A stretch of 64,000 nt of DNA from Haliclona indistincta (Eukaryota; Porifera; Demospongiae; Haplosclerida; Chalinidae). The stretch spans positions 2,933,142 through 2,997,141 of the forward strand of contig OZ024785.1 in NCBI GenBank assembly GCA_964017065.1. The letters run 5' to 3'. Made by a program: the position numbers and the translations under genes. The notes below the pieces were generated by a model. It saw nothing but the letters and a program-made list of their open reading frames with translations. It did no database searches and was not told the origin of the DNA. Positions within the stretch are counted from its first letter, which is position 1. Each line of letters opens with the position of its first letter. Below are positions 522 through 64,000 of the stretch, piece after piece.

Positions 522-3500
522 ATGTTACTAGTATCTCGGATGTTAGTCTGTATAGCCACACTCTATATAACTGTTGCCAATACTGCCTGTAAGTGAATTC
601 TTCAAATTTTACGTAATCTCCTTTGATTTTCTCTCTTCTCCTCTAGCACTCACAGAGGGTCCAGTGTCAGTGAGTGCATTGGTTGGAGAGAATGCTCTGT
701 TCTACTGTAATGGTAGTGGTATCACTATTGTATGGATAGTGGATGGATCTTTAGCAACTGACTCTATCATTGCGGATCGAGGAATCACTGCTACTCCAAT
801 GACATCATCAGGCACAGTACAGTCCACTCTCACTGTACCAGCAACACTAGAGAACAATGGAATTACTGTACAGTGTGTGATCTATCCTGGTGAGGTGACC
901 AGCAACAATGCTACTCTGACTGTTCTTCCTGGTAAGCAATACTAATACTTATCATGTAGACTTATCATCATTGTGATAAACAGGTATTGGTCGAGTAATA
1001 AATGTGAGGTTTACTGATTCATTGAGCAGGATCATGTGGGATCCTCCAGTGACTGCTGGTGTACTAAGTGATTTGTTTTATGAAGTAACTGTAATGAACG
1101 ACAATACTGGTGAAATGGTTGTCCGTGAAAATACTAACAACACTTTTTGCCCGTTGACTGGTCTTAAGTCATGTCAGTACTACACAGCTAATGTGACAGC
1201 ATTCTCATCTCAGCATCGTAGTGAGAGTGTGGAAATTGGACAGAGAGTACCAGGAGGTGAGTGGGCTCATAACTTTTGCATTTTAATGTGTCAACTTTAA
1301 TAGAATACTATGGTCTGGAAATTGTATCACAGTTTTTTGTAATCAGCTACAATAGTTCTCATTCTTCTGTTACTTTCACTGTTATTATACAAAAGGTAAG
1401 CAAAAATAATAATTAATAATCCTAAATTCATTACAATGTCATAATTATCATTGCTGCTTGGCAATGAATTATAATTGCAACATAAATTTGCCTGGGCATC
1501 ATCAAATGTTGTTTTCACTGAAGTTTGTACCAGTATTAGCCCAGAACCTAGGACTTTCACTGAGGGCCACGCCACTGTGCTGTAGCTGTATCTACTTTTG
1601 TTACAAAATTTCTGAATTTTAATTTCATAATCTATTGCAAACACCATAGCAAACATCAACAACATTATTCTCTCCTCTTTTTATAAGATACATAATAGTA
1701 AACAAAAAGTTTTAATGTTTATGTACAGACATTAATAGCTTTTGGAAGTGTTTACTGTTGATAGTAGTTCTTCTCTCCTTGTCCCCACACCACTAGTATA
1801 CACTGCTGGGTATGGTCTCCATTACTAGTGTATCTGATGGGTTGAGTATCAGTACACTGCAGTAGACACAGAACATTGCGATGCATCTAGTTTATTAGGA
1901 ATTCTAGTCATCTAGTCACTAGGGATTCCTAACATTTTTTGTTTTCAGCTGAAAGCGTCACCGTGTAAACGCAGCCTCATTTACACAAGGCTAAACCACA
2001 CTATCAAGCATGAACGTATTGACTATGACAACCAACTTGCAAACTGCAGTACATGTACTAATTTTATTGCTTATTCTTACTAGTCAAATCCGCTGAACTG
2101 CCCTGGTCAAGAACTGATGTCTATGACTTATCCAACAAACAACGATTTAATTAAAACTCCACAAACATCAGTAATAAATATAACACAACCTGGTTGGATA
2201 CAGTATACTGTCTTTGTTGAAAAGAGCTGTCATTGTGCAGGTGATATTATGATTGTTGCTAATGACAGAGAAATTGATGTAAAGACAGTTCTATTCAGTA
2301 AGTCATGACTAGTTGATGTTGTGTTTAATCTGGTCATACTGTGACAGGTTCCTATAATGTTCAAGACTGTGATGTATCCAGTGACCAGCACACTAGCTCC
2401 ATACTAGTGGAGTGTACATTTGCCATCAATTCAACAGCACCAGGGATTGTAGTGATACAAGATGACCAGAGTCAATATACCATCTACAAGACACTGCAGA
2501 GACTGCTGCAGGATAGTGATAAAGGATCTGTCAACATTACTGGACTACCAGCAGGAGAGTATAGTGTGAGAGTGTATGACAACAGTCCAGCTACTGACAG
2601 CACTAGTGCTGCATATCAGCATTCTCAGTTAATACACATTATGGAACTATCTAGTCCTTATCCTTCAAGTATTATGTCACCTACAATACTCCCATCAGGT
2701 ATGTATAGTTACTTAACTAATGAGTTTAATCGATTGTTTTTATTTCAGTATCTTCTGTAACCTATTTGACGCTTTCAAGTTCCTTTTTGCTTAGCCACAC
2801 TAGTATCACTCCCAGTGTGATGCTTGAATCTGCAACAGGTAGCTTTTATTACAGCAGATTGCACATATTGATTATGTTTTGTTTTCACAGCCCATGTAGC
2901 TGCTTTAGTTGGAGTTGCAGTTGGTGTAATCATTACAATCATCATTTTCCTCGTGGTGGCGATGACGTTTGTTATCTTTGTCATGATGCGTGCCCAAAGA
3001 AAGACCAGATTAAGTAATTCACCAATATTTATCGTTACCTTGTGATGACGTTCATTTTTTAACAGTTTCGGTACAGACTATACATTGGGCTAAAGAAGAT
3101 GACAGGTTTGTCCATTATGGTGAACTTGCTATCATTGAGTGTGTATTTCATTGCAGGTATCAGGAGCTCAAGTTTAAAAAGGTAAAACTAGTTGTAATAA
3201 GAGAGTAATCTGAATGTGACCAGAGGAGTAAGTATTATGTCATTTCTGGTTCATAAAAATTCCCATTTTTATTATATTCATTATATTCAACTTATTGCAT
3301 CACATTGGTATTATTTTGTGACCTCATAGTATGCTAATTACCAATCAATGAAAATCCCTGCTATGGTGCCTGACTTGGGACTTTAACTGAATACTGTCAC
3401 ATAGTTTCCCAAATTACTGTGTAGGATCTTGGCAGACAGAATGTAGTGAGTACAAGGATAGATAGTAGTAATTCTGGCACTGCTTGTATGGAACTGAGTT

Positions 3501-4993
3501 ATAACAACCTTTTCACTCCATCAAGTATTCACCATGTAGGTTAATGCTTGTCTACTAGTAAGTATGTTTTTTTTGCACAGCAGGATGAGCAACCAACGAA
3601 GCTTCAAGGACCAATATATGCTGACCTCCATCACTCTACTAATCCACCAGCTCCTCCTCTACCTGTTGAACCAGTACAATATGCTACTGTTAAGAAACAA
3701 ACTGACAACATTGAGACTACACAGCCTGAAGACAAGGTCAGTCGTATTGTCATGTTGTGTGCTCATAGTGTGTTTACAATCTCGTGTGCAGGGATTGCAT
3801 TATGCTCAAGTACAGCACTCTACTAATCCACCAGCTCCTCCTATACCTGTTGAACCAGTACAATATGCTACTGTCAAGAAATCAGAGCCAGTACAAAGTG
3901 AAACATCACCTTTGGATGTGAGTTTAAGCACCAAGACACACTGTCTACATAATTTACAGTTGCTAGCTCATCTTGACCTCTGTTTATGTAGAAGTCTCCA
4001 ATGTTTTGACAGTTGTTCATACATAATTGAGCACGTGCATAACCTAATATGCATGTTTGGTAATGTTGTATTGAGTTGTGGTTTTGCTAGACATGCAAAT
4101 GTAAGTGTGTCATTATAAACTGCACAATTTGTTTCCTATAGTGTGATATAGTGTGTAAAGACACACTCTCTTCAATGGCAAGTTCTTCTAGCTCTCGAGA
4201 AACCTCCGAGACAACTGTGTCTGATGAAGCATCAGATTCACTCCCATCATCAGGTGACCATACTCACACAAAAAATATTATGATAATAAGCAATAGTTAG
4301 TTCAATACATAATTGACAGATTGTAGTCTACTTGAATAAAACAACATAATTTCAGTCCCTGCATTGTCATCATGTTAACTGCTTGTTGCTTTTAGATTGC
4401 AGTGTCAGTACACAGCCAATAGCAAGAGCTTCCTCTGGTGCTGGTGAGTTTAGAGAATAATTTCAAAACTACATTTGTAACTAATCTGTTTCTACATTAA
4501 TTTTTAGTTGATTCCAAAATGCTCTTGGTACTGTAATTAATACTGTTACAGTGTTGAAGGTGTCAGATCAGTGTTCTCATTAGGCCTTTAGTGAGGGAGC
4601 TTCCTCCTTGGATATAAGTATTTAAGATATTGATTTCCCATTTAGAAAAGTGCCAAACCAATTGATAAGACATGTGTTTCACCAAAATAGCTATAAAACC
4701 GACCCGCCCACTAATTCTCTTAGTTTCAAAATCCTAGCAGAACACTGAGTCAGATTATTGCAAATGTCTAAATATTGTGGTAAATAATACTAATAATTGT
4801 TACAATCAATACCTATACTAGCGTAATTAGATTACAATATTATTTTTCTCTTACAGTGAGCCAGCCCATCTGTTTTGTGTCAGCCAATGGTCTTACTGAT
4901 GTCAGAGATCCTTGTGTTGTATCTGATCATGACAACAGAGACAGAGAATTACTGCAGCACTTTCCTCATCATACAGAATACGAACAAAGATGA
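522..4993 (+). CDS. Receptor gene 1: Ig-FN3 transmembrane protein with multi-ITIM cytoplasmic tail
   Basis: Sixteen exons are seen: 522-588, 647-931, 984-1256, 1304-1395, 2084-2297, 2348-2698, 2749-2838, 2891-3013, 3066-3105, 3157-3181, 3425-3535, 3581-3736, 3792-3917, 4142-4253, 4396-4443 and 4857-4993 (TGA). They have GT-AG borders and join in frame (2250 nt, 749 aa). The order is signal peptide, Ig domain (LFYC, W and VQC), FN3, a second FN3-like domain split by a phase-0 intron, a third domain (VQDCDVSS), a linker, a TM helix (GVAVGVIITIIIFLVVAMTF) and a long tail. The tail holds LSYNNL, LHYAQV and two VQYATV motifs, all fitting the ITIM consensus, inside Pro-rich repeats (NPPAPP). ITIM families usually recruit SH2 phosphatases, so an inhibitory receptor role is inferred. 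The TM and tail differ from the other array members. Exon limits are read from the sequence, without transcript support. Confidence 0.78.
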
Positions 4994-7950: not shown

Positions 7951-7956
7951 TTACTC

Positions 7957-8098: not shown

Positions 8099-10137
8099 AT
8101 GTACATGTGGATGGTGTTTCTCTGGTTCTGCTTCTTGATCACTAGTAAAACTATCTGTTTGGCTGCTGGTAATAGAAGTTATAGAATGAGATACTGGGTC
8201 TTGTGATTTCTATTCTCTAGTACTTACAGAGGGTCCAGTGTCAGTGAGTGCACTGGTTGGAGAGAATGCTCTGTTCCACTGTAATGGTAGTGGTTTCATT
8301 ATAGCGTGGACAGTGGATGGATCTTTAGCAACTGACTCTATCATTTTGGAACGAGGAATCACTGTTAATACAACGTCATCATCAGGCACAGTGCAGTCCA
8401 CTCTCACTGTACCAGCAACACTAGTGAACAATGGAACTACTGTACAGTGTATACTGATATCACTCAGTGGGTTTGCTGTCAGCAACAATGCTACACTGAC
8501 TGTTCTCCCTATACCTGGTGAGCTGTGTAGGAAAGTTCCACTCACTTGTTTTCAAACTGTTTATACAGGTATTGGACAGGTTAGAAATGTGAGATTCACT
8601 GATTCATTCAGTGACGTACAATGGGATCCTCCATTGACTGCACTCAGTGGTTTAATGTATAAAGTTACAACAATGAACACAAACACTGGTCAAATTGTTG
8701 TCAATGAAACTACTAACTACACCAGTTCTCCACTACCTTCTCTTGAGCTGTGTAAAAATTACATTGTCAATGTGACAGCATTCTCATCTCAGCAACAAGG
8801 TGATAGTGTGGTTACTGAATTTAGACTACCAGGAAGTGAGTGTGTTGGCTGTGTATTGCACAGTGCGAGTTGATACTGATTATTTTCAGATTACTATCAA
8901 TTTAAGACTATGTCACAAGAGAATGTCTTTAAAGACTCTTCAGCTGTTGAACTACTTGTCACACTGCGTTTAACGGTATTAATAGATCCAGGAGTTATAA
9001 CATGTGAAACAGTATTTCAGGTATCAGGTTCCCCATGTCCTGATCAGAGACTAACAGCTTAGACGTACCCTCAATCCAACACATCTGATATCACTAACCA
9101 TCCTGAGCTAGTGATAATGAGCAGTGGAGATATTGTATACTCCATCACTACTAGTATTGAGAGGAAGCAACACTACACAGCTACTATCAGCCTCATTGGT
9201 AATGAAGGGATTATACAACAGTTGCCTTTAACATTCAGTGAGTTAGTCTTGTGTTATGATACTATTATTTTTGATGGTGATATAGATACGTTTGATGTTC
9301 AAGACTGTGATGTATCCAGTGACCAGCACACTAGCTCCATACTAGTGGAGTGTACATTTGCCATCAATTCAACAGCACCAGGGATTGTAGTGATACAAGA
9401 TGACCAGAGTCAATATACCATCAACAAGACACTGCAGAGACTGCTGCAGGATAGTGATAAAGGATCTGTCAACATTACTGGTCTACCAGCAGGAGAGTAT
9501 TGTGTGAGAGTGTATGACAACAGTCCAGCTACTGACAGCACTAGTACTGCATATCAGCATTCTCAGTTAAAACACATTATTGAACTACATCAGCCTTCAC
9601 CTACTCTATCAATTTCTGCTGTTGTTTCAGGTACAATGTATTGTAGTATTATTACTGCTTTGTTTATACTTTTTCTAGAAACATTCATTGCTGAGAGCTT
9701 CCTTGTGCATACCACAGTGCACAACAGTGCAACTCCTTTCCCAATGCCTGCTCCATCATGTATGTATAACATTAGCTAGATCGCATGTGATTTATTATTG
9801 CACATGTACAGATAGTTTCACTATCATTGCTGCTGTAACTACTACTGGACTACTGTTGCTACTAGTGATATTGATTGTGGTCACTACTAGTATAGTGTGT
9901 GCAGCACGAGTTGCTATGAGACAAAAACAACACAATATAGGTCTGGTAGTGATAACCATTATTGTACAATACTTTAGAATTACTACAGGTGTTATTGATC
10001 ATGTTCCAGTTGATGATAATCCTGCTTACATCACAATGAAGAGGATCACCTTGAACAAGAACACTGCTTATGAGACTGTCAATATGAAAGACTGTCAATA
10101 TGAGACTGTAAATACAAGTCATTATGAAAATGTCTAG
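8099..10137 (+). pseudogene. Receptor gene 2: Ig-FN3 receptor with one premature stop
   Basis: Nine exons are readable: 8099-8168, 8221-8517, 8569-8835, 8890-8975, 9021-9237, 9286-9630, 9679-9759, 9812-9940 and 9989-10137. All phases agree (1641 nt). They encode a signal peptide, Ig (FHC, W, VQC), FN3 (NVRFTDSF, QWDPP), a split FN3-like domain, the VQDCDVSS domain, a linker, a TM (TTTGLLLLLVILIVVTTSIV) and a tail with NPAYITM, TAYETV and SHYENV. The only defect is TAG at 9060-9062, where paralogues have CAG (LTAQ). Translation would stop at about residue 253, leaving a signal-peptide-Ig-FN3 product without an anchor. It could be a null allele, a secreted form or a young pseudogene. Intron 5 is only 48 bp. 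Confidence 0.75.
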
Positions 10138-10410: not shown

Positions 10411-13400
10411 ATGTACATGTGCACGGTGTTTCTCTGCTTTTTGATCATGAGTACAACTACTAGTTCAAGTGCTGGTAATAATCACTAGTTTTGGAGTGTG
10501 ATAATAAATTAAAACTGTACTCTCTAGCACTCACAGAGGAACCAGTGTCAGTGAGTGCACTGGTTGGAGAGAATGCTCTGTTCCACTGTAATGGTAGTGG
10601 TTTCACTCTACTATGGATCGTGGATGGACTACACGAATATAGTGCATCCATCATACAGCGAGGAATTTCATCAGTTCTATGGACATCATCAGGCACAGTA
10701 CAGTCCACTCTCACTGTACCAGCAACACTAGTGAACAATGGCACTACTGTACAGTGTGTGATCTATCCTGGTGAGGTGACCAGCAACACTGCTACCCTGA
10801 CTGTTCTCCCTATACCTGGTGAGCTGTACAGGACTATTGTACTGATAACATATCATACTATCCTATATTGTACAGGTATTGGACAGGTTCGTAATGTCAG
10901 GTTCACTTCATCACTCAGTGATGTACAGTGGGATCCTCCATTGACTGCTCTGAGTGGTCTCATGTATAACGTCACTACAATGGACATGAATACTGGTCAA
11001 ATTGTTGTCAATGAAACTACTAACAACACTTTTTGTCCTCTACCTCTATACTAGTGAATTGTCAGAACTACATTGTTAATGTGACAGCATTCTCATCTCA
11101 GCAACAAGGTGATAGTGTGGTTACTGAATTGAGACCAGAAGGAAGTGAGTGTGTTGGTTGAACAGTGCGAGTTGATACTGATTTTAATATATAGATAACT
11201 ATCGATTCAAAACTATATTGTCACAAGAGCTTGTCTTCAGAGAACCTGCAATTGTAGAATTCCTTGTGACACTACATGTAATAGTATGTTAGATCCAGAA
11301 ATTGTAACTATTAAATTAATATTCATTTTCAGGTATCAGGTGTGCCATGTCCTGATCAGAGACTAACAGCTCAGTCGTACCCTCAATCCAACACATCTGA
11401 TATCACTAACCATCCTGAGCTAGTGATAATGAGCAGTGGAGATATTGTATACTCCATCACTACTGGTATTGAGAGGAAGCAACACTACACAGCTGGGTCA
11501 TTCCATATGAAATCAACCACACTTTGAAAGTTCAAGTTACAGAATTGGACGAAACTTGGTACACATGTTGGGTAGAGTAAGGTTATTACTTTCCTGAAAT
11601 AATAGTGATCTATGATGAATGGCTTCTGAGATATAGCCAATTAACTATCAGACATTTTAACGAAAATGCCTTCGCTAGCTGTTTCTCATGTCATTGTAAC
11701 TTTTTATCAGAACATTTCTACATCATGAGGCTAGTACCATCTTATAGCTCATGAAACTGGCTTTCACATGAAATGTTGTTAGGCTTCATTTTCAAAATTT
11801 ATTAATTAATTAACAGGTTGTTAAACTTTGACCTACGATTTCTCAAAAAACGCGTCCTGAATTTTTTTGTTATGAATGTATAATCATGCCACACTATTGG
11901 TCTATCATTTGCCAGAGTTTAGTTTTGGGACCAGAACGGGCTACAGAAATATGTCTAACGAGCTATGAATAATCGGCTAATAAGAACCAATATCATGGTA
12001 AAAACAAACATACGAGTGTACAATTTGTAATAAAAATTGATCATTGCCCTGCACATACAGTAATGTTGACTGTTGCTATCCATGTGACATTTAAAATATT
12101 GGTTTATAGCTTAAATCTCAAAAATATAATACCTAGTCTATATTGAAAGAAGTGCATACACTATCTGTGCACTATAGTTATTTTCTTGTTATTAGTTACT
12201 GCTATGGCCATGGGTGTGCCAACAATAAGCATTAAAAATATGTTTAATAAAAATAACCATGAACTTGAGTGAGTGCAAACAGTGCAAATGAGCCTGAGCA
12301 AGCACATTTTGTGAACCTGTCTGACCAGTACAATCATCTAACAGGAGGCTTGAAAATCACACTAGAGTTCAATACAGTCCTATAGTTAATCAATTCATGG
12401 GTCTCCAAAACAATGAGAAGTTAATAACAATACATCATCAAGTAAGCATTGAAAGGGTTAATTTTCTACAGATTTTTCATATAGATTTAAAATCAATGTT
12501 ACTAAACATCTAATAATAAGCTTTAGTAGTATTATAGTCACAAATGAACTGTTTTGTTACAAATTGTACACTCGTATGTTTGTTTTTACCATGATATTGG
12601 TTCTTATTAGCCGATTATTCATAGCTCGTTAGACATATTTCTGTAGCCCGTGCTGGTCCCAAAACTAAACTCTGGCAAATGATAGACCAATAGTGTGGCA
12701 TGATTATACATTCACAACAAAAAAATTCAGGACGCCTTTTTTGAGAAATCGTAGGTCAAAGTTTAACAACCTGTTAATTAATTAATAAATTTTGAAAATG
12801 AAGCCTTACAACATTTCATGTGAAAGCCAGTTTCATGAGCTATAAGATGGTACTAGCCTCATGATGTAGAAATGTTCTGATAAAAAGTTACAATGACATG
12901 AGTAACAGCTAGCGAAGGCATTTTCGTTAAAATGTCCGATAGTTAATTGGCTATATCTCAGAAGCCATTCATCATAGATCACTTTTATTTCAGGAAAGTA
13001 ATAACCTTATTCTACCCAACATGTGTACCAAGTTTCGTGCAATTCTGTAACTTGAAATTTCAAAGTGTGGTTGATTTCATATGGAATGACCCAGCTACTA
13101 TCAGCCTCATTGGTAATGAAGGGATTATACAAGAGTTGCCTTTAACATTCAGTGAGTTAGTCTTGTATGATGATTCTATTATTTTTGATGATGATAACCA
13201 TGAAACAGGTACATTTGGTGTTCAAGACTGTGATGTATCCAGTGACCAGCACTAGCTCCATACTAGTGGAGTGTACATTTGCCATCAATTCAACAGCACC
13301 AGGGATTGTAGTGATACAAGATGACCAGAGTCAATTTACCATCAACAAGACACTGCAGAGACTGCTGCAGGATAGTGATAAAGGATCTGTCAACATTACT

Positions 13401-14260
13401 GGTCTACCAGCAGGAGAGTATAGTGTGAGAGTGTATGACAACAGTCCAGCTACTGACAGCACTAGTGCTGCATATCAGCATCCTCAGTTAGTACATATTA
13501 TGGATCTATCTACTCCTTATCCTTCAAGTATTATGTCATCTATCATACTCCCATCAGGTATGTCATGTATAGTGCTGTACACCTACAAATACAATCATGA
13601 TAGATTAATGGTTTTTCTTTTAGAATCTTCAACAAGTTTTTTGAATCATTCAAGTTCCTTCTTGTTTAGCAACAGTGTCACTCCTAGTGTGGTGCTTGAA
13701 ACAACAACAGGTTATTCAGCTAATAATAGTCCATGTCACTATTTTAATATACTGTGCTGCTTTGTGGATCATTGTTTACGCAATTCTAGTCCAACAGAGA
13801 GTTTGTTTGTGCATATCATGATACAGTACACACAATTGTCTCTCTCTATTACATATTGCATACTTTAACATCGGAATATAATGTTGATGATTGATCGAGT
13901 GCTGTATACATACAGATATTTCCATCTCTGTCATCATTGTTGGACCATTGTTAGCGCTGCTTGTGATACTGATTGTGGTCTTCACTACTATAGTGTGTGC
14001 TGCACGTGCTGTTACTATTAGAAGAAATCAACACATCATAGGTATCTAATGAATATTTTGTAACTATTTATTCTTTTATCAAAAACTATTTAGCTGCAGG
14101 TGTTATTGATCATGTTCCAGTTGATGATAATCCTGCTTACATCACAATGAAGAGGATCACCTTGAACAAGAACACTGCTTACGAGACTGTTACTGTAGCT
14201 ACTGGTGACTATGAGACTATCAACACTAGTGCTTATGAGAATGTTAACATTACTAGTTGA
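10411..14260 (+). pseudogene. Receptor gene 3: frameshifted Ig-FN3 receptor interrupted by a foldback element
   Basis: The exons are 10411-10474, 10528-10818, 10876-11144, 11195-11283, 11333-13151 (containing an insertion at 11495-13092), 13209-13557, 13624-13710, 13916-14041 and 14100-14260. The FN3 exon has a 2-bp insertion near 11044-11050 that leads to TAG at 11052-11054. The VQDCDVSS exon lacks two bases near 13250 (CAGCACTAGC against CAGCACACTAGC in paralogues). The TM (VGPLLALLVILIVVFTTIVC) and a tail with NPAYITM, TAYETV, GDYETI and SAYENV remain open. The gene is closest to genes 5 and 8 in its FN3 and linker types. Three independent lesions make a pseudogene likely. Confidence 0.8.
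11495..13092. mobile_element. 1.6-kb foldback element with about 540-bp inverted arms
   Basis: The ends are GGGTCATTCCATATGAAATC and its reverse complement, and the arms run inward to about 12035 and 12555. The element is flanked by AGCT on both sides (11491-11494 and 13093-13096), a 4-bp target duplication. It sits inside exon 5 of gene 3. The roughly 520-bp centre has no useful reading frame, so the element is non-autonomous. I cannot assign the superfamily. Confidence 0.85.
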
Positions 14261-22945: not shown

Positions 22946-23351
22946 GGTAAAAACAGCACTAGAAACTACTAAACCCTAAACCCAAGACCCTAAAAATCTT
23001 CGCCTAACAGCACCCAGTATTCGCCTAACAGCACCCAGTATTCGCCTAACAGCACCAGTATTCGCCTAACAGCACCCAGTATTCGCCTAACAGCACCAGT
23101 ATTCGCCTAACGTGCCCAGTATTCAGTATGGACTTAACCATATTATCTATGGACTTAACGGCGCCCAGTACTATTCTGGCACGTTAGGCGAATGCACTGT
23201 TAGGCGAATACTGGACGCTGTTAGGCGAATACTGAGCGCTGTTAGGCGAATACTGGGCACTGTTAGGCGAATACTAGGCGCTGTTAGGCGAAGGTTTTTA
23301 GGGTCTTGGGTTGGGTTTAGGGTTTAGCAGTTTCTAGTGCTAGTTTTTACC
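22946..23351. repeat. Foldback minisatellite with telomere-like arms
   Basis: The outer arms mirror each other (GGTAAAAACAGCACTAGAAA, then CTAAACCCTAAACCCAAGAC, against the reverse complement at 23299-23351). Inside, each arm carries five to six copies of a 20-21-bp unit (TTCGCCTAACAGCACCCAGT plus A), in opposite orientation. The CCCTAAACCC text is similar to metazoan telomere repeats but amounts to only two units. Confidence 0.85.
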
Positions 23352-36448: not shown

Positions 36449-36815
36449 AATAGTAACTAGTGAGTGTCACTAATATCACAGTAACTAGTGAGTGTCACTG
36501 ATATCACAGTAACTAGTGAGTGTCACTAATATCATAGTAACTAGTGAGTGTCACTAATAGCACAGTAACTAGTGAGTGTCACTAATATCACAGTAACTAG
36601 TGAGTGTCACTAATAGCACAGTAACTAGTGAGTGTCACTAATATCACAGTAACTAGTGAGTGTCACTAATAGCACAGTAACTAGTGAGTGTCACTAATAT
36701 CACAGTAACTAGTGAGTGTCACTAATATCATAGTAACTAGTGAGTGTCACTAATAGCACAGTAACTAGTGAGTGTCACTAATATCATAGTAACTAGTGAG
36801 TATCACTATTGTCTT
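36449..36815. repeat. 28-bp minisatellite, second block
   Basis: About 13 further units run to the pyrimidine tract of the splice acceptor at 36821-36823. The last unit is altered (GTGAGTATCACTATTG). Confidence 0.95.
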
Positions 36816-44370: not shown

Positions 44371-44619
44371 TCTATGGCTCCACCCCTACCGTTCGGACCT
44401 GACTTTGCTAAGAGGTCTAAGGAATTCTCAGAACAACTGAAGGCACTGCGCTCTTCTCTAACAACAACCAGGACTCGGGACAATGACCCTGGTAGAAGAC
44501 AGCTTTTTCGATCGCGTCCCCCCTCGAAGTGGGCGGGACACCGAGGCGGCAGGGGCGGAGCCCCAAGCACATACAAGCACGGCAACAGGTCAAACCAGCA
44601 GCATCAGAAGTCCCAGTAG
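44371..44619 (+). pseudogene. DIRS Gag-like protein, C-terminal part
   Basis: An open stretch starting MAPPLPFGPDFAKRSKEFSE is rich in Arg and Gly (GHRGGRGGAP) and ends at TAG. It is read as the C-terminal piece of the Gag split by the insertions. It overlaps the RT frame that starts near 44529. Confidence 0.5.
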
Positions 44620-46560: not shown

Positions 46561-47590
46561 AGGTAGAACCCCAGTTGGCCGTGTGGAGCATCTCAGGAAA
46601 AACCTCAGAGACCAGCACCTTTCAGTCCAAGCTACTGAGCTCGTACTCATATCATGGAGAGTTAAGACAAACAAGTCTTACGACTCACTCTTTGGGCGAT
46701 GGGATCGCTGGTGTAGTGAACGGGGTTCAGATCCCATTTCTGGTCCTGTAAGCGAAGTAGCGAACTTCCTTGCCTCCTTATACGGGGAGGGCTACCAATA
46801 CAACTCAGTCAATGCTTACAGGTCAGCCATATCATCAACGCATGATAGAGTGGATGGGGTTGACGTAGGCCAACATCCCATCATCACAAGACTGCTAAAA
46901 GGCGTGTACAATAGCAGACCTCCAATACCGAGGTATTCAAGTACATGGGATGTACAAACAGTATTAAACCACATTGAGACCCTGGGTCCCACTGCAAACC
47001 TCTCTTTGAAAGCTCTGACTTTGAAGACAGTGTTCTTACTAGCAATTACACGCCCCTCAAGGTCGACCGACCTGAGCTCGCTGGATGTATCAAGAATCCA
47101 ATCGCGTTCAGATGGGTTATCCTTCATACCAAATTCTCTAGCGAAACAGTCGAGACAGGGAAAGTCAGTCGAAGCATTCTTTTTCCCCTCATTCCCAACA
47201 AATATTAATTTGTGTCCAGTGAATACCCTGAGGGTATACAGAGAGAAAACAACCCCTCTGCGTCACGGGGAGACAAGGGTGTTTATTTCGTTTATTAAAC
47301 CACATAAGGCTGTCACTTCTAGCACTATAGCTAGGTGGCTAAGAGTAACCCTGGAGGAGGCAGGAATTAACTCATCTATATTTGGAGCTCACTCCACTCG
47401 AGGAGCTTCAGCATCAACAGCCTTTAAGGCAGGTATTACAGTGAACGACATACTCAAATCAGCAAACTGGAGTTCTGAATCAGTATTCCAAAGATTTTAC
47501 CACAAGGAAGTGGACCAAGCAGCATACAGTAGAGCCGTAATCAACCAGAATAGCTCGAAGAAAGCTACAAACAACACAGTTGATGTGTGA
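46560..47590 (+). CDS. DIRS tyrosine recombinase
   Basis: An open frame to TGA at 47588-47590 contains a core-binding part (YDSLFGRWDRWCSERGSDPI, ANFLASLYGEGYQYNSVNAY) and a catalytic part with Arg (AITRPSRSTDL), HSTR (FGAHSTRGASAS) and a Tyr candidate in FQRFYHKEV. It would act on the circular DNA intermediate. The upstream border is unclear because the frame continues back into the out-of-frame RNase H region. This is the only DIRS frame here without a visible break. Confidence 0.75.
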
Positions 47591-49440: not shown

Positions 49441-49460
49441 TTCTTGTTATTCCTACACAG

Positions 49461-49795
49461 TGACTGAGAATGTCAACAACAACACAATCATTCTGACTTC
49501 CTCCATTGCTACTGGACTACTGTTGCTGTTTATGATATCAATTGTGGTCATCACAACTACTTTAACAATTGTTCGACTAAAGCAAACTAGAGGTAATGTC
49601 TTTTTGCATTGTAAACACGGTTACCAATTCAAAACAGTAGGAGGTGCTGCAGGTGTTACCGACCATGTTCCAGTTGATGATAATCCTGCTTACATCACAA
49701 TGAAGAGGATCACCTTGAACAAGAACACTGCTTATGAGACTGTTAATATAAATGAGACTATCAATACAAGTGCAGTTTATGAAACTGTATATTAG
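49461..49795 (+). CDS. Receptor gene 4, 3' part: TM exon and ITSM/NPxY tail exon
   Basis: Exon 49461-49592 encodes a TM helix (TSSIATGLLLLFMISIVVIT) after TENVNNNT. Exon 49653-49795 encodes VPVDDNPAYITM, NTAYETVN and SAVYETVY, ending in TAG. The pair is very close to 58293-58633 of gene 6. The acceptor phase (1) matches the linker exon that ends at 37456. NPAY fits PTB-domain binding, YITM fits a PI3K-type YxxM motif, and TAYETV fits the TxYxxV/I ITSM consensus. These readings come from motif knowledge and are not tested here. Confidence 0.72.
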
Positions 49796-51601: not shown

Positions 51602-54586
51602 ATGTACACGGTGTTCCTCTGCTTCTTGATCGTGAGTACAACTACTAGCCATAGTTCAGCTGCTGGTAATTACTATTAATGGAGTGAGACAAGGTCTTGT
51701 AATTTCTTCTCTAGCACTCACAGAGGGTCAAGTGTCAGTGAGTGCACTAGGTGGAGAGAATGCTCTGTTCCACTGTAATGGTAGTGGAGTGGTCATTCAG
51801 TGGATTGCTGATGGATTGTATGTGACTGGAACAGATCCTGTCATTGTGGATCGAGGAATCTCTGCTGTTTCATTAATATCATCAGGCATAGCACAGTCCA
51901 CTCTCACTGTACCAGCAACACTAGTGAACAATGGCACTACTGTACAGTGTGTGATCTATCCTGGTGAGGTGACCAGCAACACTGCTACACTGACTGTTCT
52001 CCCTATACCTGGTGAGCTGTACAGGACTAATGTACTGATAACATATCATACTATCCTATATTGTACAGGTATTGGACAGGTTCGTAATGTCAGGTTCACT
52101 TCATCACTCAGTGACGTACAGTGGGACCCTCCATTGTCTGCTCTGAGTGGTCTCATGTATGAGGTCACTACGATGGACATGAATACTGGTCAAATTGTTG
52201 TCAATGAAACTACTAACAACACTTTTTGCCCACTACCTCCTCTTCAGTTTTGTCAGAACTATATTGTTAATGTGACAGCATTCTCATCTCAGCAACAAGG
52301 TGATAGTGTGGTTACTGACCTGAGACCACCAGGAAGTGAGTGTGTTGGTTGTTGGTTATACAGTGTGAGTTGATAATGATTTTCATTTTATAGGTACTAT
52401 CGATTAAAAACTATATTGTCACAAGAGCTTGTCTTCAGAGAACCTTCAATTGTAGAATTCCTTGTCACACCATATGTGTAATAGTATGTTAGATCCAGCA
52501 GATGTAACTTTTAAATTAATATTATTCTTTTTCCAGGTATCAGGTTCCCTTGTCCTGATCAGAGACTAACAGCTCAGTCGTACCCTCAATCCAACACATC
52601 TGATATCACTAACCATCCTGAGCTAGTGATAATGAGCAGTGGAGATATTGTATACTCCATCACTACTGGTATTGAGAGGAAGCAACACTACATAGCTACT
52701 ATCAGCCTCATTGGTAATGAAGGGATTGTACAAGAATTGAATTTAACATTCAGTGAGTTAGTCTTGTATTACAATACTATTATTTTTGATGATGATAATC
52801 ATGATAAAGGTACGTTTGATGTTCAAGACTGTGATGTATCCAGTGACCAGCACACTAGCTCCATTCTAGTGGAGTGTACATTTGTCATCAATTCAACAGC
52901 ACCAGGGATTGTAGTGATACAAGATGACCAGAGTCAATATACCATCAACAAGACACTGCAGAGACTGCTGCAGGATAGTGATAAAGGATCTGTCAACATT
53001 ACTGGTCTACCAGCAGGAGAGTATAGTGTGAGAGTGTATGACAACAGTCCAGCTACTGACAGCACTAGTGCTGCATATCAGTATTCTCAGTTAATACACA
53101 TTATGGAACTACCTTGTCCTTATCCTTCAAGCATCATTTCATCTATCATACTCCCATCAGGTATGTCATGTATAGTGCTGTACACCTACTAATACAATCA
53201 TGATGGATTAATGGTTTTTCTTTTTAGAATTTTCAACAAGTTTTTTGATGCATTCAAGTTCCTTCTTGTTTAGCAACAGTGTCACTCCTAGTGTGGTGCT
53301 TGAGACAACAACAGGTTATTCAGCTAATAATAGTCCATGTCACTACTTTTGTATGCTGTGCTGCTTTGTGGATCATTGTTTATGCAATTCTAGTCCAACA
53401 GAGAGTTTGTTTGTGCATATCATGATACAGTACACACGATTGTCTCTCTCTATTAGGGAGTCACGGTATTAGGGAGTCACGGTAGTGCCTCCCTATGTAG
53501 GGATGAACGAGAAAACAAGATGGCGGCTACATACAATGTATTAGCGTTCAAACGCTGATATTTCGCCTGATGATGAATTCTATACGTCCAAAGACACTTA
53601 GATCTGCTCTCTGGCATTGCCCCATCTTACAGTAGCAAGGAGATTGCTCGAAATTGTTGCTAAAGTGACGAACCTGGAAACGGTGAAAATCGAGTTTCGT
53701 CATCTTCGTTTTCTTCTTTCTTCCACTCGCCTAGCACCTTTACGTGAGCAGTGCCGAGATCAAAACACCCACGAAGAGTCGTGAAATTCTCCTGGCATGT
53801 GCCTTTTGAACTTAGTTTTTAGCGAAACGACGATATAAATTTGACGAGTTCACGATCACGAACAGGTGTCAGCTAAGTGTTTGACGCCATTATTGTGTAT
53901 TATCATCGTTCTGCTGCTTGCCAGATAGTATCACCGCCATACAGAAATTTCTAAACCAGAGTGGGCGGGGCTCGTATGCAGTTCATGCATGAATGCATGA
54001 GCTAGTTTTAGTATTTAGGAATAACATAAGCTACAAGTTAAAAAGCAATTATCAACAACAGCAAACCAAACCAATGGTGGAAACAAAGAGATACATGATC
54101 TTGGAGATTTCGAACTGCACCAAAAATTTGATGAAAAAGAAAAAAGGACACAAAACAAGAAAATAAAATAAAGTACCACCAACTAGCCCTGTCGTACTTG
54201 TTTTCACCCATAGCCATTGAGTCGCTTGGTGCAGTTGGACCAAAGTCCTGGGACTTCTTGGTGGACCTTGGTCGCCGTATCAAAATGTACAGCGGTGAAA
54301 ACAAAGCATTTTCGTACCTTATTCAAAGACTATCGGTGGCAGTCCAACGTGGCAATGCAACTTTAGTGCGGGGCACTTTGCCTTCACTAACTGTAGATTT
54401 GTTTTCTTAATTATTTTTATTGTTTGCTTTTGTTTTTGTTTGCTTTTTGGTTTGTTTTTTGTTTTTTTTTGTTTTTTTTGTTGTTGTTTTTTTTTTCTCT
54501 TGCTTACCTCTGTTAGTTTAGTTGTTTTCTTTGTTTCCCTTTCCTTACACCTTAGTGTTATTATGTATCCTGTTCAAAATTGCTTG

Positions 54587-54617
<31 letters not shown>

Positions 54618-55684
54618 AAAAAATAAATAAATAAAATAAAAAGATTTCTAACGAAATCAAAAGGATGTAAGGATAAAGAAATCTGCTACTGGTCCACAAT
54701 GTAAACCAACAAGGAGCAAGTATGGAATGGTAACACGATTGACTTGCTAACAGACCATAGATCCCTACATCAGTGGCTGTACATAAGATTTTGATTTTGA
54801 TACAAGCTGAATTCATGTCAGGTGTCAGTCAACAGCAACTAGCTGAACTGCTATAGTCAGCCACAGCAGCCACTGATGTAGTATTAGACACTAGTACCAT
54901 TACCACCGTATTAGAGACACTAGTAACCTTCCACCCCTGCTCGCTGGCACAAAGCTTCTTTGTGAAAGGATGAGTAAGTGAGAAAGGTAGCAGGAGTAAC
55001 CTGAGATCTGGTAAAATCAGCAATTAAGGTGTCTTTAAATTCTGGTTCAAGGGATAATTGCGACACCACCTCGTCCCATTGTACCTCTAACTTTCTTTTT
55101 TCAGAACTACGCGTATGCGTACTCTCACTCATGACTGAAAAAGAGGAGCAGGAGGAGCAAAGGTCCGGGATCTATGGTCTGTTAGCAAGTCAATCGTGTT
55201 ACCATTCCATACTTGCTCCTTGTTGGTTTACATTGTGGACCAGTAGCAGATTTCTTTATCCCTACATCCTTTTGATTTCGTTAGAAATCTTTTTATTTTC
55301 TTGTTACATATATTGGATACTTTAACATCAGAATGATATTTATAATGATTGATATACATGCAGATATTTCCATCTCTGTCATCATTGTTGGACCATTGTT
55401 AGCGCTGCTTGTGATACTGATTGTGGTCTTCACTACTATAGTGTGTGCTGCACGTGCTGTTACTATTAGAAGAAATCAACTCATCATTGGTATCTAATGA
55501 ATAAGTATTTAATTAACACATTAAATAATTTCTAGCTGCAGGTGTTATTGATCATGTTCCAGTTGATGATAATCCTGCTTACATCACAATGAAGAGGATC
55601 ACCTTGAACAAGAACACTGCTTATGAGACTGTTAATATAAATGAGACTATCAATACTAGTGCAGTTTATGAGACTGTGTTATAA
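51602..55684 (+). CDS. Receptor gene 5: Ig-FN3 receptor, open if exon 4 is skipped
   Basis: The exons are 51602-51665, 51715-52011, 52069-52335, 52537-52752, 52810-53160, 53228-53314, 55364-55489 and 55542-55684. The usual exon 4 (52394 onward) has lost one base and meets TAA at once. Exon 5 has also lost one base (GGTTCCCTTGTCC against GGTTCCCCATGTCC in gene 2). Joining exon 3 directly to exon 5 restores one frame of 1551 nt (516 aa). Domains are signal peptide, Ig with VIQWIADG, FN3, a shortened second FN3-like domain, the VQDCDVSS domain, a linker, a TM (VGPLLALLVILIVVFTTIVC) and a tail with NPAYITM, TAYETV and AVYETV. A foldback element enlarges intron 6 of this model. Confidence 0.65.
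53455..55305. mobile_element. Foldback element, copy 3, in an intron of gene 5
   Basis: It begins with a duplicated TTAGGGAGTCACGGTA, continues as in copy 1 (AACGAGAAAACAAGATGGCG) and ends in a hairpin with arms at 54638-54780 and 55165-55305. Between the arms lies extra sequence, with a minus-strand frame of 70 codons (54920-55132) that I do not recognise. Poly-T and AAT repeats occur near 54420-54640. Confidence 0.7.
54198..54410 (+). pseudogene. LINE-like C-terminal fragment within foldback copy 3
   Basis: The frame starts MFSPIAIESLGAVGPKSWDF and contains LIQRLSVAVQRGNATLVRGT, the same block as 48480-48830. It lies just before poly-T-rich text, as would be expected of a retroelement 3' end. 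Confidence 0.5.
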
Positions 55685-56686: not shown

Positions 56687-58633
56687 ATGTATACGGTGTT
56701 CCTCTGCTTCTTGATCATGAGTACAACTACTAGCCATAGTTCAGATGCAGGTAATTATTACTAAATAGTCGTGGAGCGAGACAAGGTCTTGTAATTTCAT
56801 TCTCTAGCACTCACAGAGGGTCCAGTGTCAGTGAGTGCACTGGCTGGAGAGAATGCTCTGTTCCACTGTACTGGTAGTGGTATCGCTGTTCAATGGGTAG
56901 CAGATGGAGTATACGTGACTGATACAGATCCTGTTATTGTTGATCGAGGAATTACTGCAAGTTCATCAGTATCATCAGGCACAGCACAGTCCACTCTCAC
57001 TGTACCAGCAACACTAGTGAACAATGGCACTACTGTACAGTGTATAGTGCTTTCTCTGCTTGGTTCAGTGACTAGCAACAATGCTACACTAACTGTTCTC
57101 CCTGGTGAGCTGTTATACAAATGACTATAAGTATTATACTGTTTCTGCAGGTATAGGTCCAGTTGTCAATGTGATGTTCACTCCATTGTTCGTCAATGTA
57201 CTGTGGGATCCTCCAGCAACTGCTGGTGTACTCAGTGGTCTCTCATATATAGTGATTGTGATGAACAACAACACTGGTCAAGTGATTGTCAGTGGCACTA
57301 CCACCAACACCAACTATCCACTACCAGTTCTTGAGTCATGTCAGTACTACACAGCTAATGTGACAGCATTCTCATCTCAGCATCATAGTGAGAGTGTGGT
57401 TACTGGACAGAGAGTACCAGGAGGTGAGTAAGAACAATAATTGTAATGTGGTTTGAATGTGTTGTTACATTTTAGTGTACTATGATTTGACAAGTCCTTC
57501 AGTGGTCAGTGTAGCCATCTACAACACCACTCATCGTGCTGTTACATTTACTGTTGTAGTAGAACAGGTAAGATACTGTAGCAGTAAGCTTAAGAATAAC
57601 ATAAACTAAGAGTTTTGTTTTAGCGAGGCCTTCTGGTTTGTACTGATCAAGAGCTGATGTCTGTGACATATCCAGTGTCAGATACTTCAAATAAGACTCT
57701 TCATCCAGAGGTTGCTGTAACACAACCTGGTGTGATACAGTACACAATCTATGTTGAAAAGAGTTGTCATTGTGCATCTGATATTATGATTGTTGATGCT
57801 GACAAAGTAATGACAGTCAACTTCAGTAAGTCATGACTAGCTAGTTGATGTTGTGTTTAATCTGGTCATACTGTGACAGGTTCCTATAATGTTCAAGACT
57901 GTGATGTATCCAGTGACCAGCACACTAGCTCCATACTAGTGGAGTGTACATTTGCCATCAATTCAACAGCACCAGGGATTGTAGTGATACAAGATGACCA
58001 GAGTCAATATACCATCAACAAGACACTGCAGAGACTGCTGCAGGATAGTGATAAAGGATCTGTCAACATTACTGGTCTACCAGCAGGAGAGTATAGTGTG
58101 AGAGTGTATGACAACAGTCCAGCTACTGACAGCACTAGTGCTGCATATCAGCATTCTCAGTTGGTACACATTATGGAGCTATCTAGTCCAAGTTCAATGG
58201 AAGTTTTATCAACACTCATTCATACTGTTTCCACTCCTGGTAAGGTACTTTACTCATGTTATATACACATAGCTGTTGTTGTTCCTTCACAGTGACTGAG
58301 AATGTCAACAACAACACAATCATACTAGCTTCCTCCATTACTACTGGACTAGTGTTGTTACTGGTCTTCACGATATTGATTGTGTGCACCATCATTACTT
58401 TAACAATTGTTAGACTAAAGCAACACAGAGGTAATATCTTTTTGCACTGTAAACACGGTTACCAATTCAACGCAGTAGGTGGTGATGCAGGTGCTATTGA
58501 TCATGTTCCATTTGATGATAATCCTGCTTACATCACAATGAAGAGGATCACCTTGAACAAGAACACTGCTTATGAGACTGTTAATAAAATTGAGACTATC
58601 AATACTAGTGCAGTTTATGAGACTGTATTATAA
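56687..58633 (+). CDS. Receptor gene 6: intact Ig-FN3 receptor, 522 aa
   Basis: Eight exons are seen: 56687-56750, 56808-57104, 57151-57423, 57476-57567, 57624-57825, 57880-58239, 58293-58430 and 58491-58633. All have GT-AG ends and consistent phases (1569 nt). Parts in order: signal peptide (MYTVFLCFLIMSTTT), Ig (LFHC, W in VQWVADG, VQC), FN3 (WDPPATAGVLSGLSYIVIV), a split FN3-like domain (YYDLTSPSVV; CTDQELMSVTYP; SCHCASDIMIV), the VQDCDVSS domain ending in a Ser-rich linker, a TM (ITTGLVLLLVFTILIVCTII) and a tail with NPAYITM, TAYETV and AVYETV. FN3 and exons 4-5 are of the gene 1 type, while TM and tail are of the gene 4 type. It is the cleanest reference member of the family here. Confidence 0.85.
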
Positions 58634-59572: not shown

Positions 59573-59586
59573 TGAAATACATGTAC

Positions 59587-59768: not shown

Positions 59769-61763
59769 ATGTATACGGTGTTCCTCTGCTTCTTGATCAT
59801 GAGTACAACTACTAGCCATAGTTCAGCTGCTGCTGGTAATTATTGCAAGACAATCAAGGTCTTGTAATTTCTTTCTCTAGCACTCACAGAGGGTCCAGTG
59901 TCAGTGAGTGCACTTGTTGGAGAGAATGCTCTGTTCCACTGTAATGGTAGTGGTTTCACCATAGCATGGATAGTAGATGGATCTTTAGCAACTGACTCTA
60001 TCATTGTGGAACGAGGAATCACTCCCGATACTCCTATGACATCATCAGGCACAGTACAGTCCACTCTCACTGTACCAGCGACACTAGTGAACAATGGCAC
60101 TACTGTACAGTGTAGAGTAGTTTCATCACTGGGAGGGTTTACTAATAGCAACACTGCTATCCTGACTGTTCTCCCTGGTGAGCTGTGTGATGACAGCACA
60201 CTGACTATAATTAATTGTATTTTGACTAGAATTGTATAATACTATTGTTACAGGTATTGGTCCAGTTGTCAATGTGAGGTTCACTCCATCATTCAGTGCT
60301 GTACTGTGGGATCCTCCAGCAACTGCTGGTGTACTCAGTGGTCTCTCCTATATAGTGATTGTGATGAACAACAACACTGGTCAAGTGATTGTCAATGACA
60401 CTACCAACAACACCAACTATCCATTGCCTCCACTCCCGTCTTGCCAGTACTACACAGTTAATGTGACAGCATTCTCATCTCAGCATCGCAGTGAGAGTGT
60501 AGTTATTGGACAAAGACAAGGAGGTGAGTTGTTTCAGGAGTACTTAATTCCGGTTGATACCAACATTCTCTAGAAATCTTTATTTTAACATCAAGTCAAG
60601 ATATTGATGTTACTCGTAAAGACAATTTTTCCATCAAGTGGTTTACCTTGTCATGGTCAGATGCTAAAATTTCAGACTTATCCACGAGATGACGTATCTA
60701 ATATCACTGACCATTCTGAGGTGTTGATTTCTGGGAGAGGAGATCATGTATATCCTATCATCGTTACTGAGAGTAAACAGCTATGCATTGCAGCCATCAG
60801 TCTTATTGCAAATGATGCTGTGATCAAGGTGTTGAATCTAAATTTCAGTGAGTCTCTTCAGCTGTGATACTAATAGAACTTTTGATATTCATGCAGGTAC
60901 ATTTGATGTTCAAAACTGCAACATACATGTAACCACATCTACTGATCAAAGCTCTATAATGGTGGAGTGTAGATTTGCTGTTAATTCAACAGCACTGTCA
61001 GGAATTGTTGTGATAAAGGATGAACACAATCAACCAATTAACGAAAGGGAACTGAACATCAAACATGGAAACAATATGAAATCAGTGAATATTACAGATC
61101 TACCAACAGGAAACTACAAAGCATCTGTGTATGACGATATTGAAGACAAACAACCTGCATATCAGCATCCAGAGTTTTTGAAAATTGTTGCACACAGTCC
61201 AACACCTACTCCATCAACTACTGTTGTTCATACAGGTACAACATGTTGTTGCATTGCTACGAATGCTGTTTATGTTATTATGAACTCTCTTCTAGAAACA
61301 GCTATTGCTGAAAGTTCACTTGTGCATGGTACAGTATACACAATAGTTCTTCTCCTGGTCCTACCATGAATATGACCATAACACAGAGTATGTTCATAAG
61401 AATAGCATGTGATTATAACTTACTTTCATGTTATTGCTGTTTCTGTTTATAGATGAAAATTTTCCTTCTATCACCATAGCTGCTATCTTAGTCTAATACT
61501 GCTACTTTTGATACTAATTGGGATCATTACTATATAGTGTGTGCAGCAGTTACTATGAACAAAAACAAGGACAGAGGTATTATAATGTTTTGTTTCCAAA
61601 TTTAGACTCACTTTTTCCACTAGGTGTTATTGATCATGTTCCAGTTGATGATAATCCTGCTTACATCACAATGAAGAGGATCACCTTGAACAAGAACACT
61701 GCTTATGAGACTGGTATAAATGAGACTATCAATACAAGTGCAGTTTATGAGACTGTATTATAA
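59769..61763 (+). pseudogene. Receptor gene 7: broken Ig-FN3 receptor
   Basis: Open exons are 59769-59835 (signal), 59881-60177 (Ig, with FTIAWIVDG), 60254-60523 (FN3), 60897-61235 (diverged third domain, TFDVQNC...) and 61624-61763 (tail with NPAYITM). Exons 4 and 5 are fused at 60574-60847. A deletion removed the intron and left the two halves out of frame, giving TGA at 60690-60692. The linker exon (61296-61387) has two extra bases, and the TM exon (61453-61576) contains stops and frameshifts. The intact Ig and FN3 exons suggest recent loss or a donor role in gene conversion. The third domain differs much more from its paralogues than the Ig exon does. Confidence 0.75.
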
Positions 61764-62371: not shown

Positions 62372-62470
62372 GTGAGGCTTTGCATCAATAACAACACTAC
62401 TTTGTACATGTGATGTTACAGTCATGATTTATTGTGCTGCTGTATAACAGTAGTATTCCTCTTAGTAGTA

Positions 62471-62614: not shown

Positions 62615-64000
62615 ATGTACACTTGCACAGTGTTCCTCTGCTTTTTGATCGTGAGTATAACTACTAGTTCAGCTACTGGTAAAAATTATTACTAGTTTGG
62701 ATAAATTGCGACTGTGTATTCTCTAGCACTCACAGAGGGTCCAATGTCAGTGAGTGTACTGGTTGGAGAGAATGCTCTGTTCCACTGTAATGGTAGTGGT
62801 AACATTATAACATGGATAGTGGATGGACTACAAGAAAATCAACCTTCTATCTTTCAACGAGGGATCTCTTCAGTCCTTATACCATCATCAGGCACAGTAC
62901 AGTCCACTCTCACTGTACCAGCAACACTAGTGAACAATGGTACTACTGTACAGTGTGTGATCTATCCTGGTTCAGTGACCAGCAACACTGCTACCCTGAA
63001 TGTTCTTCCTACACCTGGTGGGCTGTACAGGACTAATGTACTGATAACATATCACACTATCCTATATTGTACAGGTATTGGACAGGTTCGTAATGTCAGG
63101 TTCACTTCATCACTCAGTGACGTACTATGGGATCCTCCATTGACTGCTCTGAGTGGTCTCATGTATGAGGTTACTACGATGGACATGAACACTGGTCAAA
63201 TTGTTGTCAATGAAACTACCAATAACACCTTTTGCCCACTACCTGAACTAGAGAATTGTCAGAACTATATTGTTACTGTGACAGCATTCTCATCTCAGCA
63301 ACAAGGTGATAGTGTGGTTACTGATCTGAGACCATCAGGAAGTGAGTGTGTTGGTTGTTGGTTGAACAGTGCGAGTTGATACTGATTTTCATTTATAGAT
63401 AACTATAGATTCAAAACTATATTGTCACAAGAGCTTGTCTTCAGAGAACATTCAATTGTAGAATTCCTTGTCACACTACATGTAATAGTATGTTAGATCC
63501 AGCAGTTGTAACTTTTAAAATTAATATTGTTCTTTTCTAGGTATCAGGTGTGCCATGTCCTGATCAGAGACTAACAGCTCAGACTTACCCTCAATCCAAC
63601 ATATCTGATATCACTAACCATCCTGAGCTAGTGATAATGAGCAGTGGAGATATTGTATACTCCATCACTACTGGTATTGAGAGGAAGCAACACTACACAG
63701 CTACTATCAGTCTCATTGGTAATGAAGGGATTGTACAAGAATTGCCTTTAACATTCAGTGAGTTAGTCTTGTATTATGATACTATTATTTTTGATGGTGA
63801 TAACCATGAAACAGGTACATTTGATGTTCAAGACTGTGATGTATCCAGTGACCAGCACACTAGCTCCATACTAGTGGAGTGTAAATTTGTCATCAATTCA
63901 ACAGCACCAGGGATTGTAGTGATACAAGATGACCAGAGTCAATATACCATCAACAAGACACTGCAGAGATTGCTGCAGGATAGTGATAAAGGATCTGTCA
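62615..64000 (+). CDS. Receptor gene 8: Ig-FN3 receptor, 5' part, runs off the window
   Basis: The exons are 62615-62678 (signal, MYTCTVFLCFLIVS), 62727-63017 (Ig: FHC, W in ITWIVDG, VQC), 63075-63341 (FN3), 63399-63487 and 63541-63757 (split FN3-like domain) and 63815 to the window end (VQDCDVSS domain). All are open and in phase, with no lesion in the visible part. FN3 and exons 4-5 are closest to genes 3 and 5. It keeps the CAG codon mutated in gene 2 and the exon 4 sequence lost in gene 5, so it serves as a reference for both. Confidence 0.8.

Follow-up and report, generated by a model that had tools for sequence, protein, structure and literature searches.

Receptor genes in the window

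The stretch of Haliclona indistincta DNA analyzed here (the window, 64,000 nucleotides, C3:2933142-2997141 in a genome of 144.0 Mb and 46 contigs) contains seven genes with an immunoglobulin (Ig) exon, all on the forward strand and labeled W1, W2, W3, W5, W6, W7 and W8, plus two 3' fragments. Judging from their sequences, these genes probably belong to an array of variable, single-pass recognition receptors that is diversified with the help of gene conversion and signals through SH2 proteins. They were located from stop-to-stop reading frames and a tblastn scan with modules taken from the window, in which the Ig exon matches begin at 643, 8217, 10524, 51711, 56804, 59877 and 62723. The usual exon order is signal peptide, Ig, FN3-like, D3 (D3a plus D3b), D4, stalk, transmembrane (TM) and tail, and each exon encodes one module or half of one. 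Most of the junctions that were read by eye are in phase 1, while the one between D3a and D3b is in phase 0. A first-pass annotation of this DNA had proposed at least eight same-strand copies sharing a signal peptide, Ig and FN3-like domains, a TM segment and a tyrosine-motif tail. The common strand and the shared parts are borne out by exon matches in the forward-strand genes, which carry further ectodomain exons besides, while the number of copies has to be replaced by the seven genes and two fragments.

Three of the seven genes (W1, W6 and W8) are open as far as they were followed, W2 and W3 are pseudogenes, the TM exon of W7 is broken and W5 has a frame problem. The features, in window positions, are as follows.

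204-301, forward: tail-exon fragment (NPAYITM); neither a TM nor an ectodomain exon was found beside it
522-3917, forward: W1, open as far as followed, with no final exon located; signal exon 522-588, Ig about 647-931, FN3 983-1255, D3a 1306-1395, D3b 2093-2299, D4 2350-2649, TM 2890-3015, tail exons 3605-3736 and 3789-3917 (PIYADL, VQYATV, LHYAQV, VQYATV and proline-rich stretches)
8099-10137, forward: W2, full exon set, TAG at 9060-9062 in D3b; a pseudogene unless D3b is skipped
10417-14260, forward: W3, pseudogene with three lesions, namely an FN3 frameshift near 11046, 1.6 kb of DNA inserted into D3b (about 11495-13093) and a D4 frameshift near 13250
14400-49300, no strand: interruption of about 35 kb with no receptor exon; retroelement frames
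49451-49789, forward: TM and tail exons only, a 3' fragment without ectodomain
51602-55684, forward: W5, with every exon present; on reading by eye the frame is lost between D3a and D3b unless D3a is left out
56687-58633, forward: W6, open, 527 or 542 amino acids according to a single splice alternative ahead of the tail
57882-58181, forward: homogenized D4 block of W6
59769-61763, forward: W7, divergent D3/D4 type; TM exon with indels relative to the copy at C3:2915189
59955-60155, forward: stretch of the W7 Ig exon spanning the hypervariable patches
62615-64000, forward: W8, open; extends to C3:2997808, with TM and SHYENV tail beyond the window

The program that joined exons into gene models was permissive: it gave no model for W2, flagged W3 yet joined it, and passed W5 and W7. 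These four genes were judged by eye or alignment instead.

A large array on contig C3

The whole genome was searched with D4, Ig and tail sequences, and the counts obtained for the array are lower bounds. The interval C3:2.85-3.98 Mb holds 111 Ig matches among the best 150 of 285 candidates and 104 D4 matches among the best 150 of 207, fragments and broken copies included in both cases, with at least 102 of these Ig matches and at least 93 of these D4 matches on the forward strand. The Ig matches lie from 2.87 Mb onward. Since they are repeated about a hundred times on contig C3, the receptor exons are not a chance pattern. The window covers little of a single, very large array, in which decayed genes stand beside many open ones, and the cluster size given by the first-pass annotation was far too small. 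Smaller clusters lie at C4 0.99-1.11 Mb, C5 7.42-7.61 Mb, C6 10.84-10.97 Mb, C7 2.08-2.10 Mb and C3 16.18-16.28 Mb. Sequence was read for C3:2835000-3027399 and for 21 single genes.

Although four of the seven window copies are damaged or doubtful, and one gene has an identical score on C1 and C3, it appears very unlikely that we are dealing with a decaying array in which most copies are dead, or with an assembly artefact in which the duplicates are haplotigs. Of 36 gene slices run through the permissive joiner, 34 came out unflagged, which is an upper bound on open slices because W5 and W7 passed and slices lacking a signal exon or TM were allowed through (this set does not include the slice named 2931). 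The hypervariable patches described below differ among copies, and some of the same copies are present in public contigs.

The gene with identical scores on two contigs is located at C1:16375285 and C3:2871154, and the pair is possibly an unremoved haplotig or a recent duplication. At three places two Ig exons, or an Ig fragment, lie upstream of one FN3 exon (C3:3485172 and 3485923, the gene L036; C3:2914136/2915189; C3:2998182/2998722). The extra exons are possibly alternative first Ig exons or remnants.

Domain composition of the ectodomain

Across 38 aligned Ig exons, residues C25, W34 and C82 are invariant, which provides the Cys-Cys pair and core Trp of the Ig superfamily. Pfam scores of single exons fall just below the curated cut-offs, with 18.6 vs 21.8 bits for Ig and 22.8 vs 25 bits for FN3. 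A profile of the 38 Ig exons retrieves antibody light chains with a whole-sequence E value of 5e-4, the single stretches having i-E values of 0.45-1.6. D3 and D4 gave no significant Pfam match and no Ig match, and a comparison of D4 with the PDB gave no significant match (best E value 0.49).

The FN3 exons are of two types, mostly with GIGQVRNV and GIGPVVNV. These are mixed with various TM and tail types, the TM exon type TM2 being found with both. Likeness of the TM2 exon is 96.7% both among the 12 genes of type A and between types A and B (12 by 5 genes), while in one A-B pair that has TM2 the FN3 exons are 72% identical.

An Ig-FN3 architecture also suits adhesion or cell-identity molecules without an immune role, comparable to Dscam, whose diversity would be used between cells of one body, and the copies in which one FN3 is preceded by an additional Ig exon or Ig fragment fit this as well. 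We consider such a role improbable, given that the tails are rich in phosphotyrosine motifs and that a developmental set would not usually include pseudogenes and non-reference members.

Variation concentrated in patches of the Ig exon

Variation within the Ig exon was analyzed in 26 exons of contig C3 belonging to one clade. Four patches (alignment columns 28-31, 37-48, 52-58 and 83-96) were picked, by their high proportion of nonsynonymous differences (pN), from a per-column table of the same data. In the patches pN is 0.42 and the corresponding synonymous proportion (pS) is 0.46, compared to 0.046 and 0.114 elsewhere; pS in the framework blocks 1-27 and 59-82 is 0.063 and 0.079. When only codons for the same residue are counted, the differing fraction is 0.274 in the patches vs 0.084 in the framework. 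Since silent sites differ in the patches too, we read the patches as old or imported and the framework as copied. Weak profile alignments to antibody light chains place the first, second and last patches on complementarity-determining region (CDR) 1, the C' to CDR2 region and CDR3, respectively.

In a set of 27 genes, patch distance correlated with FN3, D4 and tail distance at rho 0.00-0.09 and with framework distance at 0.14-0.20, whereas the framework-FN3 correlation was 0.57. The patches are not merely saturated, as the first three taken jointly correlate with the last (rho 0.40). An ATD-type second patch occurs with three types of last patch. In the public protein P0030 the second patch is of QEN type and the last of RVVS type; none of the 11 other QEN-type sequences that could be parsed has this combination (21 of the 101 sequences in the patch table were unparsed, and duplicates between reference and public sequences were kept).

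Exon-confined similarity of D4, TM and tail

The median synonymous divergence (dS) among C3 copies was 0.32 for Ig (34 exons), 0.42 for FN3 (33), 0.087 for D3b (19), 0.72 for the other D3b type, D3b2 (11), 0.031 for D4 (33), 0.062 for TM2 (24) and 0.15 for the tail (32). Exons excluded from this analysis were 6 of 40 Ig, 2 of 35 FN3, 4 of 23 D3b, 2 of 13 D3b2, 5 of 38 D4, 1 of 33 tail and 1 of 25 TM2. Nonsynonymous divergence (dN) exceeded dS in 191 of 528 D4 pairs. The low median dS of D4 argues that this exon is young or copied, and not merely conserved in its protein.

Genes on three contigs have D4 exons of 94-98% identity despite unrelated introns on one or both sides. For example, W6 and a gene at C3:3323 kb share 97% identity in D4 and 94% in the tail, compared to 48% in D3b and about 50% in both introns flanking D4. 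A C3 copy is 96% and 94% identical in D4 to copies on C4 and C7, respectively, with 65% and 71% in D3b and 60% and 57% in TM; the introns flanking D4 are 53% and 42% identical in the C7 copy, and 92% (upstream) and 40% (downstream) in the C4 copy. W6 and W1 have an identical upstream intron (100%) and unrelated TM exons. By an ungapped measure, which overstates the number where introns carry indels, the upstream introns are unrelated in 458 of 496 D4 pairs, and in those 458 pairs identity reaches 0.95 or more about 10 nt into the D4 exon. Copies on C5 and C6 lie outside this exchange, with D4 identities of 67% and 76%. Homology-limited gene conversion would account best for a D4 likeness that is confined to the exon.

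Cytoplasmic tails and a candidate signaling partner

The tails were searched for the immunoreceptor tyrosine-based inhibitory motif (ITIM, S/I/V/LxYxxI/V/L) and switch motif (ITSM, TxYxxV/I), following the consensus definitions in PMC8631942. At least one ITSM is present in 34 of the 36 main-type tails and at least one ITIM in 21 of them, three of the 36 being clipped by the stretch end; the tails without an ITSM are those of the 204-301 fragment and W7. The 36 tails contain 134 Yxx[VILM] motifs, compared to a mean of 33.6 and a maximum of 46 in shuffled tails. The consensus motifs are cytoplasmic and lie behind a single TM segment. The array on C3 and these motif counts agree with the first-pass description of a clustered, variable Ig receptor family with ITIM/ITSM-consensus tails.

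All 36 main-type tails also carry NPxY and YxxM (as NPAYITM, once NPVYITM), so that the word inhibitory in that description is too strong. In other systems NPxY docks PTB domains, YxxM the SH2 domains of PI3K, and YxN docks Grb2. With NPxY, YxxM and YxN-type motifs present, the tail is predicted to be able to dock several SH2 and PTB proteins, a capacity that goes beyond inhibition. Tyrosine gaps in three main-type tails that were measured are 8-15.

The tail of W1 is of a different type, with PIYADL, VQYATV, LHYAQV and VQYATV at a spacing of 21-22 residues, three ITIMs and proline-rich stretches; the LHYAQV and VQYATV recorded in the first-pass annotation are thus present. Related tails occur in L033, a copy on C5, and in the one at C3:2871 kb. 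L033 has a W1-like tail (LNYAQV, VNYATI) and a D4 just 67% identical to that of a C3 copy.

A charged residue in the TM core was found in none of 35 models; two have an arginine at the end of the core and two lack a TM. Activating members with a charged TM core, which would mark a paired-receptor family, were therefore not seen in these 35 models, drawn from the minor part of the array that was read.

On C9, a single reading frame of the gene L050 contains two SH2 domains together with a tyrosine phosphatase, and its best solved relative is PTPN11 (SHP2, E value 1e-191), followed by PTPN6 (SHP1). By sequence, L050 is assigned as an SHP2 orthologue, and its recruitment by the receptor tails is predicted. 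It is the one that was read of two adjacent single-frame SHP2-like genes at C9:7649661-7653885, both with SH2 and phosphatase matches. A third SHP2-like gene, which has introns, gave the same matches at C2:12786026-12788136.

Family members in public contigs

A protein search with the W6 model returned two proteins and one with the Ig-FN3 frame of W5 returned 62; apart from three that are listed as belonging to the window itself, they come from ENA contigs. Eight of the 63 distinct public proteins match the DNA that was read at 99.4% or more. Five of the 63, not a random pick, were searched against the whole genome. P0029 and P0011 have a 100% match. The best match of P0007 is 89%, P0030 reaches 82% over its full length and 84% over 217 residues, and P0001 reaches 60% over most of its length and up to 69% over Ig plus FN3. 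As three of the five have no full match in the genome, family members absent from the reference exist in public contigs, one of them (P0030) with a recombinant patch set. P0007 contains intron-derived residues identical to those of W5, and therefore derives from this species or a very close relative of it. The non-reference members may be alleles, extra copies or gaps in the reference. The earlier statement that the family looks polymorphic gains indirect support from these three proteins, with two of the five at 100%.

Tandem Ig receptors on one contig, CDR-like patches and non-reference members are also what might be expected of a complex that serves self/non-self recognition only, comparable to Hydractinia Alr, with allele-specific homophilic or paired binding. 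The likeness to Alr is one of layout, and the members are at best putative alleles; we hold this narrower reading to be possible, though short of an even chance.

Model of receptor function and diversification

We favor an array of variable receptors that recognize ligands at the cell surface and change partly by gene conversion. A function in recognition is likely, a role in allorecognition is plausible, and self/non-self recognition between sponges may be the most attractive role. The receptor, consisting of a signal peptide, one V-like Ig, one FN3-like domain, D3, D4, a stalk, TM and a tyrosine tail, would stand at the cell surface, where its Ig tip would bind variable ligands, either self allodeterminants or microbial surfaces. 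The phosphorylated tail would recruit SH2 and PTB proteins, SHP2 among them. Unequal exchange and gene conversion between copies would keep the shared parts alike, and the patches would be retained and reshuffled.

More speculatively, the locus could resemble a histocompatibility complex, with about a hundred V-like Ig receptors whose antibody-like patches evolved independently. Exon-confined concerted evolution would copy framework, D4, TM and tail even between contigs, and the CDR-like patches would escape and reshuffle to give haplotype-specific repertoires that signal via SHP2. We offer this fuller scheme tentatively and think it rather less likely than its opposite.

The same repertoire could instead be directed at microbes or symbionts, as a germline-diverse innate set that binds microbial surfaces and plays no role in graft acceptance. 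Conflict between host and microbe suits large germline families that vary, decay and turn over their copies. This possibility, which we take seriously while rating it below even, gains support from a report of Ig-domain genes among those that respond to microbial molecules in two other sponges (PMC6208332). Low-microbial-abundance sponges have more Ig-like and FN3 genes, as cited in the same paper, whose Ig genes may or may not belong to the present receptor family (PMC6208332).

Several observations weigh against the array of conversion-diversified recognition receptors that we favor. The 36 tails are not independent because their ancestry is shared. Low D4 divergence could result partly from constraint on the DNA itself, and some pairs share one intron adjoining D4 (the upstream one of W6-W1 and of the C3-C4 pair, at the 100% and 92% given above). 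In the Ig exon, pS is intermediate (0.23-0.28) for the short framework stretches that separate patches. The patches were selected for high pN in the very data analyzed, which makes their pN, though not their pS, circular. Misalignment at indels, which the first patch nearly lacks, could also raise pS in the later ones. A pairwise homoplasy index (PHI)-type test for recombination in this exon gave 18 of 300 permutations at window 10 and was reversed at 20, 30 and 50. The ratio of mean dN to mean dS for the Ig exon is 0.59; domain-wide positive selection on Ig was looked for and not found, with dN above dS in just 34 of 561 pairs. In the available text of a graft transcriptome study of Amphimedon queenslandica, the word immunoglobulin is absent (PMC5450542).

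The molecules of sponge self/non-self discrimination are unsettled, and the array gives concrete candidates in an early-branching animal. ITIM/ITSM and SHP2 signaling logic is best known from vertebrates. The contrast between CDR-like patches and a copied framework makes direct predictions on haplotypes and binding.

Other features and gene families

The sole receptor-module match between 14.4 and 49.3 kb of the window is one low-scoring TM match in a tandem repeat. Retroelement frames for reverse transcriptase and a tyrosine-recombinase-like domain form at least two sets, at 28293-31079 (reverse strand) and 44496-47590 (forward strand); from their gene content we take them to be DIRS-like, and the tyrosine-recombinase-like domain scores just under the Pfam cut-off. 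About 45 and 13 copies of one common 28-nt tandem repeat lie at 33996-35224 and 36452-36808, and at 22999-23292 the 21-nt repeats TTCGCCTAACAGCACCCAGTA occupy one side and near reverse complements of them the opposite side. The ends of the insertion in W3 (11495-13093) look like mutual inverted repeats, by sight a foldback-type element.

Elsewhere in the genome, FN3 exons occur in the same or adjoining places as dense tyrosine-phosphatase exons (C10:6.1-6.5, C5:0.92-1.04 and 5.08-5.21, and C3:15.6-15.9 Mb), and these intervals look like tandem arrays of FN3 receptor tyrosine phosphatases. Dense FN3 exons at C1:5.94-6.34 Mb have no phosphatase among the matches listed. A papain-family exon, L057 (C10:4136800-4137400), has SSYAF at the active site, with SCYAF in adjoining copies, and is silicatein-like; serine at the catalytic position is presumably the silicatein trait and fits a demosponge. 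Single-exon protease genes were dropped as silicatein candidates when GSCW was found in them, the neighboring family having the one SSYAF exon.

Comparison with known systems

Tails of Hydractinia Alr proteins contain ITIM-type motifs. The Alr region resembles the present locus in having many Ig-superfamily receptor genes and likely pseudogenes in one region, here including W2 and W3, with single-pass TM and a variable ectodomain (PMC11067881, PMC11999971). In contrast to the V-set plus I-set Ig ectodomain of Alr, the receptors described here have one Ig, one FN3 and a D3/D4 region without an Ig match in Pfam, and they occur in about a hundred copies with near-identical D4, TM and tail.

The vertebrate receptors PD-1/BTLA, LILR and KIR share with them a V-like Ig tip, ITIM/ITSM consensus (PMC8631942) and an SHP2 in the genome. 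The tyrosines of the W1 tail are 21-22 residues apart, vs 25 between ITIM and ITSM in PD-1/BTLA (PMC8631942). Differences from these inhibitory receptors are NPAYITM in the main tails, tyrosine gaps of 8-15 in the three tails measured and the uncharged TM core of the 35 models.

Other sponge surface receptors with Ig domains are the Geodia receptor tyrosine kinase and Ig-TIR receptors (PMC12018476, PMC6208332). They carry kinase or TIR domains, whereas a Pfam scan of W6 showed neither. Sponge aggregation factors share with the array the status of proposed self/non-self molecules (cited in PMC5450542). No title or abstract describing this array was found in the open-licence literature, subscription papers being mostly outside that scope. 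Aggregation factors are large secreted adhesion proteins and not an Ig receptor array. What appears to be new here is the set of CDR-placed patches, the exon-confined likeness of D4, the tail motif sets together with an SHP2 gene, and the non-reference members.

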